A DNA stretch of 46,239 nucleotides from Clostridia bacterium. GTDB taxonomy: Bacteria; Bacillota; Clostridia; Oscillospirales; CAG-272. A program made the translations under genes and the position numbers. The DNA lies in NCBI GenBank assembly GCA_017462545.1, contig JAFTQX010000056.1, forward strand, positions 1 to 46,239. The letters run 5' to 3'. Below are positions 44,405 to 46,239 of this stretch, piece after piece. Positions within the stretch are counted from its first letter, which is position 1, and each line of letters begins with the position of its first letter. The notes beneath the pieces were generated by a model, which was not told the origin of the DNA, made no database searches, and saw only the letters and a list, made by a program, of their open reading frames with translations.

Positions 44405-45259
44405 ATGACATTTCAGGATATTAACATACGCGACCCATTTGTGCTGCCGGCAGATGGCAAGTATTATCTGTACGGCACGCGTGGATCTACTACCTTTGGC
44501 TACGCCATTGGCTTTGATGTGTACGTCAGCGAGGATCTTGAAAACTGGAGCGAGCCGCACTCTGTCTTTGAAGCCTCTGCCGATTTCTGGGCAGACCGCA
44601 ATTTCTGGGCACCCGAGGTGCACGCATACAACGGGAAATATTATATGTTTGCCAGCTTTAAGGCAGAGAATGCTTGCCGCGGCACACAGATTCTTGTGGC
44701 AGATACGCCCCAGGGGCCCTTTGTTCCGTTGACTCGGGAGCCGGTTACCCCACGTGATTGGGAGTGCCTTGACGGTACGCTGTATGTTGCCAAGGATGGC
44801 AAGCCCTATATAGTTTTCTGCCATGAGTGGGTACAGGTGAAGGATGGCGAGATGTGCGCGATGGAGCTGACCCCCGACTTGAAGGCAGCAGCAAGCGAAC
44901 CACGTCTTTTGTTCCATGCAAGTGAACCGCATTGGGCGAATAAGGATGCTGATAGCTACGTGACCGATGGTCCGTTTCTGTATCGCATGCAGGATGGCCG
45001 CTTGCTGATGCTGTGGTCGAGCTTTGCGGGGAAGGATTATGTGGAGGCGATTGCCGTTTCGGATAACGACGATATCACTGGTAATTGGACTCATCTGCCC
45101 GAGTTGCTGTTTGAAAAGGATGGCGGCCACGGTATGATCTTCCGCACCTTTGAAGGTGAGCTGTGCTTTATTATGCACTCGCCCAACCATCCCGGTGGTG
45201 CCGAACGCCCGCGCCTGACAACGCTGGTAGAAGAAAACGGCACGTTGAGGGTGAAATAA
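44405..45259 (+). CDS. GH43-family glycoside hydrolase
   Basis: GH43 enzymes are five-bladed beta-propellers acting on arabinose- or xylose-containing glycans. The 284-residue product has the base Asp10 in NIRDPFVLPADGKYYLYGT, WAPEVHAYNGKYYMFASF (about residues 68-85), the second Asp123 in WECLDGTLYV, and TDGPFLYRMQDGRLLMLWS. The general acid is usually Glu in an EGP motif; here the place holds Asp188 (DGP). No signal peptide is present, so it is intracellular. AAGGAGG precedes the ATG. It closes an operon with the TIM-barrel isomerase. Confidence 0.88.
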   Translation: MTFQDINIRDPFVLPADGKYYLYGTRGSTTFGYAIGFDVYVSEDLENWSEPHSVFEASADFWADRNFWAPEVHAYNGKYYMFASFKAENACRGTQILVADTPQGPFVPLTREPVTPRDWECLDGTLYVAKDGKPYIVFCHEWVQVKDGEMCAMELTPDLKAAASEPRLLFHASEPHWANKDADSYVTDGPFLYRMQDGRLLMLWSSFAGKDYVEAIAVSDNDDITGNWTHLPELLFEKDGGHGMIFRTFEGELCFIMHSPNHPGGAERPRLTTLVEENGTLRVK

Positions 45260-45273
45260 AACGCCATATAGGA

Positions 45274-45306
45274 AGCCCCCGCCCGCATAGTATGCAGGCG
45301 GGGGCT
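45274..45306. terminator. GC-rich hairpin between GH43 and XRE genes
   Basis: AGCCCCCGCC (45274-45283) pairs with GGCGGGGGCT (45297-45306), with an inner GCATA/TATGC stem. The T tract is weak, so it may act as an mRNA-end barrier as well as a terminator. Confidence 0.65.
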
Positions 45307-45342
45307 CTTGACCTCGTAGAGCAGCGGTATAAATGCCGCTGA

Positions 45343-45756
45343 TTATGGCCGAATTTCTTCTTTTGTTTCTGTGATATTGGTCGTGCTGTTTTTTGGATCA
45401 TAGCGGAGCAGGAGAATGGAACCGAGCGTGATAAGATTGATGGTAAGAATGCTAGCAATGATGATTTGCCATATCCTTTTTGCTCTGCGATTTTTGATTG
45501 CTAGGTGCTCGTTGATTCTCGCCAACTGTTCTGCTACAATGTCGCGATCAGTAGTGGGCTCTGTAATTTCACCAAGCAGATCGCCGACCGAAACCTCAAA
45601 CAACTCGGCAATTCTCGTCAGCATTTCCGCATCGGGTACAGATAGCCCCTTTTCCCATTTGGAAAATGTCTGCCGTACAACATGGAGAGCATCTGCCACT
45701 TCTTCTTGTGTGAGTCTTTTTGCTTTTCGTAGCATTTTCAGGTTGTCGTGTAACAT
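45343..45756 (-). CDS. XRE-family regulator with a C-terminal membrane anchor
   Basis: The 137-residue product has a Cro/CI helix-turn-helix at residues 1-65 (NLKMLRKAKRLTQEEVADAL, VVRQTFSKWEKGLSVPDAEM, IAELFEVSVGDLL), a helical linker (QLARINEHLAIKNRRAKR) and one transmembrane helix at about residues 95-115 (IIIASILTINLITLGSILLL), then a short polar tail outside. AAGGAGG precedes the ATG. Such membrane-tethered XRE proteins are common in Firmicutes. Its promoter contains a perfect inverted repeat, so self-repression is likely. The neighbouring 191-bp repeats lie upstream of its promoter. Confidence 0.88.
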   Translation of the reverse strand: MLHDNLKMLRKAKRLTQEEVADALHVVRQTFSKWEKGLSVPDAEMLTRIAELFEVSVGDLLGEITEPTTDRDIVAEQLARINEHLAIKNRRAKRIWQIIIASILTINLITLGSILLLRYDPKNSTTNITETKEEIRP

Positions 45757-45778
45757 GCGTATTACCTCCTTTGGCTGT

Positions 45779-45816
45779 ATTATACCGCTTTCCTTGCGTT
45801 ACATCAAGCAACGCAA
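45779..45816 (-). promoter_or_regulatory. Promoter and candidate operator of the XRE regulator
   Basis: On the minus strand TTGATG (45807-45802), 17 bases, TATAAT (45784-45779). A perfect inverted repeat, TTGCGTT (45794-45800) with AACGCAA (45810-45816), spaced by 9 bases, brackets the -35 hexamer, as expected for an autoregulatory operator. Confidence 0.75.
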
Positions 45817-45857
45817 ATGAACATTTGTCATAAAACCGGTAGATGTCTGCTTTCGAG

Positions 45858-46239
45858 AGCAGAGGGATTCGTTTTTGATTTTTGCTCAACATTTCTGATT
45901 TGGTTTTATGTAATGTTTCGCAAAAATCTTCGGTCACCGTTCAGCAACGCACCCCCGGAGCGTTGCTTCACTGCGTTCGAATCCCACCCCTGCGCATTCA
46001 ATATCAAAAAAAGCATCCGAAAAATCGGATGCTCTTTTTGATGGCGCAGAGAGAGGGATTCGTTCTTGCATTTTGCAAAGCACCTCGAAAAGGGGATGAG
46101 GTTGTGCTTTGCAAAATGCTTCGGTCACCGTTCCGCAACGCACCCCCGGAGCGTTGCTTCACTGCGTTCGAATCCCATCCCTGCGCATTCAATATCAAAA
46201 AAAGCATCCGAAAAATCGGATGCTCTTTTTGATGGCGCA
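45858..46239. repeat. Two tandem 191-bp structured repeats with tRNA-Ser-like ends
   Basis: Copy 1 spans about 45858-46048 and copy 2 46049-46239; the offset is exactly 191 bases at every landmark. The right half is nearly identical: a conserved TTCGGTCACCGTT word, a GCAACGC/GCGTTGC hairpin, CGAATCCC-type T-arm-like sequence, GCATCCGA/TCGGATGC terminator hairpin, and TGGCGCA at the end. The left half is a long hairpin whose sequence differs between copies (45877-45893 with 45912-45928; 46068-46083 with 46104-46119). TGGCGCAGAGAGAGGGATTCG (46042-46062) is almost the reverse complement of a tRNA-Ser 3' end. The array likely continues past the window. No gene is seen here. Confidence 0.8.

Follow-up and report, generated by a model that had tools for sequence, protein, structure and literature searches.

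REP/BIME, BOX and RUP palindromic repeats and MITEs have in common that they are short, non-coding and hairpin-forming, and that they are dispersed through genomes in multiple copies. The repeat units examined here lie at one end of a 46,239-nt stretch of DNA from a Clostridia bacterium (contig JAFTQX010000056.1; the whole stretch is referred to as the window). Like the palindromic repeats and MITEs, they are short, non-coding and able to form hairpins, and they can be numerous, with 34 copies in one related genome (G179). Unlike these elements, the units carry arms that match the 3′ end of the local tRNA in both direct and inverted form, they are fixed in place and orientation behind tRNA genes, and the Y1 transposase does not track with them.

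Genomic islands that target tRNA genes, tycheposons among them, also show a direct repeat of the tRNA 3′ end at the border. The units share this direct repeat (at least 12 nt at 26 of 36 loci near a tRNA) and sometimes carry cargo; they differ in that each unit is only about 190 bp long, usually without a gene and without an integrase, that many tRNA species are served, and that an inverted tRNA copy and a folded core are present. Integron cassettes and their attC sites (PMC2727003, available text) resemble the units in tandem arrangement, in the maintenance of stem pairing, in a gene placed before the hairpin (two cases here) and in a junction at a short core. The units, in contrast, have neither IntI nor a conserved GTT, are anchored at tRNAs, and have arms that equal the tRNA. 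Mutation by template switching at quasi-palindromes (PMC8794818, available text) likewise yields inverted copies and changes both partners of a pair in one step; on its own, it does not carry a single core to many loci. By titles and abstract openings, and with most subscription journals outside the scope, the literature found does not describe this arrangement. The core may be listed, unnamed, among 3161 structured-RNA candidates of human microbiomes, 250 of them palindromic (PMC8040213, available text).

The reading preferred here, tentatively and at a little under even chances, is that the units are copies of a non-coding DNA hairpin element, dispersed through genomes and placed at tRNA T-loops, whose arms derive from the tRNA by copying and which multiplies in tandem.

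The array behind tRNA-Ser(CGA)

The initial annotation had described two tandem copies in exact 191-base register, and this holds: the copies occupy 45861-46048 and 46052-46239 and are 87% identical. They are non-coding, and the minus strand is the best reading direction. Read this way, each unit comprises an inverted tRNA-Ser 3′ end (t′), a core of two hairpins (P2 and P3) and a direct tRNA-Ser 3′ end (t). At finer scale, t′ is followed by P2 with the loop CCGGGGG, the junction GAACGGTGACCGAAG, P3, CAAGAA, t with its CCA, and a near-palindromic terminator. The features are as follows, in minus-strand order.

46233..46239, minus strand: final part (TGCGCCA) of a tRNA-3′-end copy, at the contig edge
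46194..46233, strand-neutral (listed on the plus strand by the terminator scan): near-palindromic, terminator-like hairpin ahead of unit 2
46166..46186, minus strand: tRNA-Ser 3′ end in inverted copy (t′), with which unit 2 opens
46126..46166, minus strand: hairpin P2 of unit 2, loop CCGGGGG; the stem covaries among relatives
46119..46133, minus strand: conserved junction GAACGGTGACCGAAG between P2 and P3 of unit 2
46068..46119, minus strand: hairpin P3 of unit 2 (16/16 pairs), the stem described as variable in the initial annotation
46042..46062, minus strand: direct copy (t) of the tRNA-Ser(CGA) 3′ end, from T-loop C56 to CCA, closing unit 2
46003..46042, strand-neutral (listed on the plus strand by the terminator scan): terminator-like hairpin separating unit 2 and unit 1
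45975..45995, minus strand: inverted tRNA-Ser 3′ end (t′), opening unit 1
45935..45975, minus strand: hairpin P2 of unit 1
45877..45928, minus strand: hairpin P3 of unit 1; compared with unit 2, four pairs are exchanged and two broken
45858..45871, minus strand: degenerate distal tRNA-3′-end copy of unit 1, with CGAATCCCTCT retained and CCA lost

The direct copy in unit 2 is identical to the last 21 nt of a tRNA-Ser gene on another contig of the same genome (G000:C30:42561-42649). The inverted copy of unit 2 reads GCGCAGGGATGGGATTCGAAC, and its segment GGGATTCG pairs with t to form a further stem, P1. At the junction GAACGGTGACCGAAG, 13 of 15 bases are invariant in an alignment of six copies (A2). 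The arms first drawn for the variable stem were recovered in both copies, 45877-45893 with 45912-45928 in copy 1 (88% of 17 positions complementary) and 46068-46083 with 46104-46119 in copy 2 (all 16 pairs). The claim of at least four swapped base pairs also proved accurate, since four are exchanged on both sides (CG/AT, AT/TA, GC/AT, CG/TA), and two further pairs are broken. The units fold more stably than dinucleotide shuffles, most strongly copy 2 on the minus strand (z −6.32), and a stable three-way fold is predicted for t′-core-t.

A third unit, at the end of contig C30, runs straight into a complete tRNA-Ser(CGA) gene. Behind tRNA-Ser(CGA) there is thus an array of hairpin units derived from the tRNA; the repeats of the window form its distal part, and the tRNA-proximal part sits on C30. 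We infer that contigs C28 and C30 are adjacent. Each of the two breaks off within the array, which suggests that this tRNA is followed by three units or more.

Several established categories were considered for the units. They do not contain a tRNA gene, as ARAGORN gives only tRNA-Tyr and tRNA-Thr, at the start of the window. The stretch 44500-46239 has no Rfam match over the gathering score. A hammerhead-like reading of TGACCGAG..CGAGAC was rejected, with no hammerhead among 20 Rfam matches up to E 10 in the window; diverged hammerhead-like sequences are mentioned for Faecalibacterium (PMC3088659, available text). No phage match to the 382-bp repeat stretch was found by blastn (E 0.01) among 50,697 phage records, and a scan of the window for the sigma-70 consensus found no promoter-like site inside the units. 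The sole promoter-like site of the scanned stretch lies just upstream of a gene for an HTH_3 helix-turn-helix regulator (45343-45756, minus strand), which adjoins the array.

The opposite end of the window also carries hairpin-rich DNA. By eye, positions 1-110 follow the same grammar, with a tRNA-Ser-like 3′ end plus CCA, a terminator and an inverted stretch resembling a tRNA 3′ end, but a different inside. Positions 90-345, as well as loci L283, L014 and L079, contain runs of small hairpins with constant linkers of ATCAT type and variable paired stems. Such runs recur beside tRNA genes, and also precede the cargo ORFs on contig C50 and at locus L086.

A dispersed core with locally matched arms

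Further copies are present both in the same genome and in others, so the repeat exceeds chance. In the window's genome, 30 of 31 tRNA matches were examined, several of them near contig ends, and six of the 30 genes are followed by a terminator and then by copies of their own 3′ end. These are Ser-CGA, Arg-ACG, Glu-TTC, Leu-GAG, Arg-CCG (with a different core) and Leu-CAA (cut by the contig end). An inverted match of at least 10 nt is found in five of the six (8 nt for Leu-GAG), compared with 26 of 828 control pairs with other amino acids; by the same 10-nt test, a direct match is found in five of the six (Leu-CAA being cut off) and in 18 of 828 control pairs. Two tandem units lie behind tRNA-Arg(ACG) and one behind tRNA-Glu(TTC). 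A fourth unit, on contig C50, lies 1.07 kb downstream of tRNA-Ala(GGC) and has ends that match the 3′ end of this tRNA; the interval contains a terminator, a small-hairpin array and an ORF of 185 aa without a Pfam match. On contig C38 (L264, 1-760), the end of an ORF resembling, by eye, a large serine recombinase is followed by two units whose ends are like those of tRNA-Leu; no tRNA gene lies within 1 kb.

A covariance model built from six copies (R1) gives matches at E 0.01 or better in 8 of 69 genomes of the genus, some of them weak; diverged units behind tRNA-Leu and tRNA-Arg are included. The R1 units led to a generic core pattern, AGTGAATGA - stem - CCGGKGG - stem - TCAGAGC. As the pattern itself fixes AGTGAATGA, CCGGKGG and TCAGAGC, the constancy of these letters is no evidence. 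The pattern occurs in at least 120 stretches of genome contigs and in 12 stretches of viral contigs, and the listed pattern matches amount to at least 142 core instances at 132 loci. Among 80 listed contig titles, nearly all are metagenome-assembled genomes (MAGs) of Clostridia, Clostridiales or Oscillospiraceae, many with sample names from animal guts. With a model of the generic core (R2), matches were obtained in 47 of the 69 genomes of the genus and, across a sample of 147 genomes from the order, in 38. R2 does not reach the window's own units; R1, in turn, finds generic cores in five of seven sources (12 kb) at E 7e-8 to 3e-4. The window units and the generic cores are diverged branches whose main links are R1 and a shared architecture. 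The highest R2 copy number, that of G179, is reached in a 1.6-Mb genome of an order relative; several of its cores lie at contig ends and may break assemblies.

Of the 142 listed core instances, 36 have a same-strand tRNA upstream at a distance of 40-111 nt (63-76 nt in 33 of them), and the tRNAs concerned have 22 different anticodons. The order at these loci is tRNA, terminator, t′, core (P2 and P3) and t with CCA, with tandem units at several. The core motif is common to many tRNAs; t and t′ follow the local tRNA. A direct copy of at least 12 nt lies behind the core at 26 of the 36 loci and in none of 1156 controls with tRNAs of other amino acids, and the exact match has a median of 20.5 nt over the 36 loci; the other ten loci have no direct copy of 12 nt. 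An inverted copy of at least 9 nt (median 11 nt) precedes the core at 34 of the 36 loci, compared with 188 of 1156 controls, a high value that reflects the resemblance of T-arms to one another.

The junctions and the orientation are equally regular. Scoring of 34 loci gave 26 values for the direct and 33 for the inverted copy. Of the 26 direct copies, 12 begin exactly at T-loop C56 and 21, these included, begin no more than one base away from it; 23 of the 33 inverted copies have G53 or T54 as their end point. Of 40 tRNAs within 170 nt of a core, 39 lie upstream and one downstream, all on the same strand as the core and none on the opposite one, so that the orientation of the core relative to the tRNA is fixed. 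More broadly, for 62 of 189 distinct cores the sequence behind the core repeats the 3′ end of a tRNA that lies upstream on the same strand, a count without a separate control; in 15 of the 62 the matching tRNA is more than 170 nt away, and several of these are later units of an array. Where a distal tRNA copy differs from the tRNA at a site covered by t′, t′ agrees with the tRNA at two of just three informative sites, too small a number to show which of the two it follows.

Terminators before and after a unit were compared at 29 loci, 28 of which gave a score (median 16.5, control 12.0). They are mostly unlike: only 11 of 28 pairs, near-identical tandem units included, exceed the 95th percentile of the control. 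Plain duplication of a target that includes the terminator is not expected to give such pairs, and was rejected for this reason. At L141 and L101, by eye, the terminators of neighbouring units share flanks and have stems swapped as pairs.

Not every core is attached to a tRNA. Cores without a tRNA lie, by eye, in other hairpin repeats, and one core (L153) has a tmRNA gene nearby, which extends the range of hosts beyond tRNAs. Contigs C61 and C49 of one genome present, again by eye, an apparent empty and a filled version of a non-tRNA hairpin. The best reading is that the hairpin element also comes to lie in other palindromic repeats, and rarely together with a small gene.

The tRNA-Ser(CGA) gene itself has varied neighbours elsewhere. 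In at least four other species (L181, L183, L185 and L176), quite different cores occupy the same place; a direct tRNA-3′-end copy of 10-19 nt closes them, and an inverted copy is not found in all. A mirror image lies upstream of tRNA-Ser(CGA) at L174, L195, L178 and L202, where tandem units contain copies of the tRNA 5′ half or an inverted copy; these 5′-half units adjoin a promoter-side hairpin.

Paired changes without wobble, and the search for an enzyme

Stems of RNA commonly pass through G-U pairs as they change. The initial annotation had taken the paired substitutions as a sign of selection on a folded RNA or DNA hairpin. Covariation is indeed present across many copies: in an alignment of 64 of 112 distinct cores, chosen for diversity (A3), the score is 0.456 compared with 0.101 after shuffling, none of 500 shuffles scores as high, and 92.0% of cells are paired. 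One of five measures, the number of pair types, is not above the shuffles (29 vs 28.8). Pairs 17-19 and 24-25 are forced by the search pattern, which leaves columns 20-23 and the basal stem as the free test. The four free columns contain 252 Watson-Crick, no G-U and four unpaired combinations in 256 cells; the stems of 60 tRNAs from the same loci, counted as drawn by ARAGORN itself, contain 120 G-U in 1320 pairs. The basal stem is looser, with 364 Watson-Crick, seven G-U and 77 unpaired combinations in 448 cells.

Selection on the fold thus does not follow from the paired substitutions, because the free columns covary without any G-U pair; this favours copying of the hairpin at the DNA level over selection on an RNA. 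Template switching on DNA can yield paired changes in one step, and is known to make and mend stems (PMC8794818, available text). Wobble pairs would likewise be at a disadvantage if a single DNA strand were recognised in its folded form. The first interpretation is therefore supported in part: the covariation is real and belongs to a larger family, but the step to selection does not hold, and the tRNA 3′ ends at both borders had been missed. Among the natures it had proposed, a transposable hairpin element or a recombination substrate fits best, and a family of small RNAs is less favoured given the lack of G-U pairs.

An enzyme that could move the core was sought in the 69 genus genomes with profiles for Y1 transposases and integron integrases, and none was found. 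Y1 transposase (PF01797) occurs in 14 of these genomes, most of which are incomplete MAGs. Carriers include G012, G022 and the window's genome, where the gene contains an internal stop; the core-rich genomes G028, G062, G065 and G078 lack it. Mobilisation by Y1/RAYT is thus unsupported, as the transposase does not track the cores. In 117 cores, AGTGAATGA is preceded by G and then T (59%) or G (32%), a possible resemblance to the REP foot GTAG/GGAG. Integron integrase (TIGR02249) exceeds the cut-off in none of the 69 genomes, mostly incomplete MAGs, and weak tyrosine-recombinase matches below the cut-off occur in 54. GTT lies ahead of the direct copy in 2 of 24 and AAC after the inverted copy in 13 of 28 scored cases (34 loci examined).

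Cargo between tRNA and core, on the tRNA strand, is seen at two loci; ORFs were sought only at the far ones among the 62 cores. These are the 185-aa ORF behind tRNA-Ala and a DUF4288 gene behind tRNA-Leu. No integrase was found in the units, which here are 191 bp long, and each cargo ORF is small and, by Pfam, no integrase. One segment of about 230 nt directly follows the CCA both of tRNA-Ala in the window's genome and of a tRNA-Ser remnant in G028.

Competing explanations and significance

In the preferred reading, insertion would open the T-loop of the tRNA, which would remain intact because its 3′ part is then present twice. The inverted copy t′ may arise by copying of t back across a hairpin, the adjoining terminator being a near-palindrome, and the repeated t would allow arrays to lengthen by tandem duplication. 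Stem changes that alter both partners and avoid G-U would be the outcome of DNA copying templated by the hairpin, or of recognition of a single strand in its folded form, rather than of RNA selection. Movement of the element is favoured by the recurrence of one core motif behind many tRNAs, the constant orientation, the sharp junction in the T-loop, the tandem arrays, the two loci with cargo, the segment of about 230 nt behind two different tRNAs and, by eye, the empty and filled forms of one non-tRNA hairpin. The lack of an enzyme among the profiles searched, the unlike terminator pairs, the ten of 36 loci without a 12-nt direct copy, and the different cores at tRNA-Ser(CGA) in at least four other species count against the preferred reading. 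Mobile elements do not normally bring arms that match 22 different tRNAs, and the fit of t and t′ to each local tRNA is the hardest fact for any such model.

Mutation alone is a possible but distinctly less probable account, in which polymerase template switching at the palindromes of terminator and T-arm needs neither a mobile element nor a function; a rolling-hairpin process would build arrays of t - terminator - t′ - t, and the cores would be hairpins rewritten in the same way. It accommodates t and t′ as local copies, the free columns without wobble, the different cores behind one tRNA in different species, the mirror-image arrays that hold tRNA 5′ halves and lie upstream of tRNA-Ser, and the paired terminators that by eye share flanks with swapped stems (L141, L101), and the process is known to make and mend stems (PMC8794818, available text). 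The hardest fact for it is the presence of one core motif at so many places, namely 22 anticodons and non-tRNA hairpins, although the fixed letters are set by the search pattern; the mostly unlike first and second terminators and the cargo genes at two loci are further difficulties. Rather unlikely is an integron-like system in which the T-loop corresponds to attI, t′-core-t is an attC-like folded single-strand site, the unit is a mostly empty cassette, and a tyrosine recombinase acts in trans. Tandem units, the gene ahead of the hairpin on the tRNA strand in two cases, the sharp T-loop junction, stems that keep pairing rather than sequence, and the one segment behind two different tRNAs all suit it. 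It has against it that no IntI exceeds the cut-off in the 69 genus genomes, that arms must match each tRNA, and that GTT is found at only 2/24 and AAC at 13/28 scored copies, whereas attC sites keep both triplets (PMC2727003, available text). Least probable, and improbable in its own right, is a structured small RNA, with t′-core-t transcribed, for example, as a mimic of the tRNA end or as an antisense to the tRNA 3′ end. The stable three-way fold, the covariation, the 3′ end with CCA and the complementarity of t′ to the tRNA are as expected for such an RNA; the absence of G-U from the free columns (7 of 448 cells in the looser basal stem), the terminator-like hairpins at the unit borders, the lack of an internal promoter-like site (window, sigma-70 consensus only) and the lack of an Rfam match over the gathering score are not. 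The balance favours the hairpin element over template switching alone, integron-like cassettes and a small RNA.

There are hints that this tRNA-flanked hairpin family of gut Clostridia represents an unrecognised mobile element or recombination process. A more far-reaching version, which we consider improbable, is a tRNA-anchored cassette system: a putative recombinase would use the T-loop as a general attachment site, and the mobile site would be the single-stranded hairpin folded from the tRNA arms. Units that are empty or hold one gene would then collect behind many tRNAs, the tRNAs staying intact and the arms being rewritten for each. To our knowledge, no mechanism has been described in which docking at a tRNA T-loop is combined with locally fitted arms. 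If the units do not move, the family would document, on a large scale and in nature, how templates are switched at hairpins, and would caution that covariation without wobble pairs is not proof of an RNA. If they do move, the most conserved loop of tRNA would serve as a general docking site, with the tRNA kept whole and the arms fitted locally.
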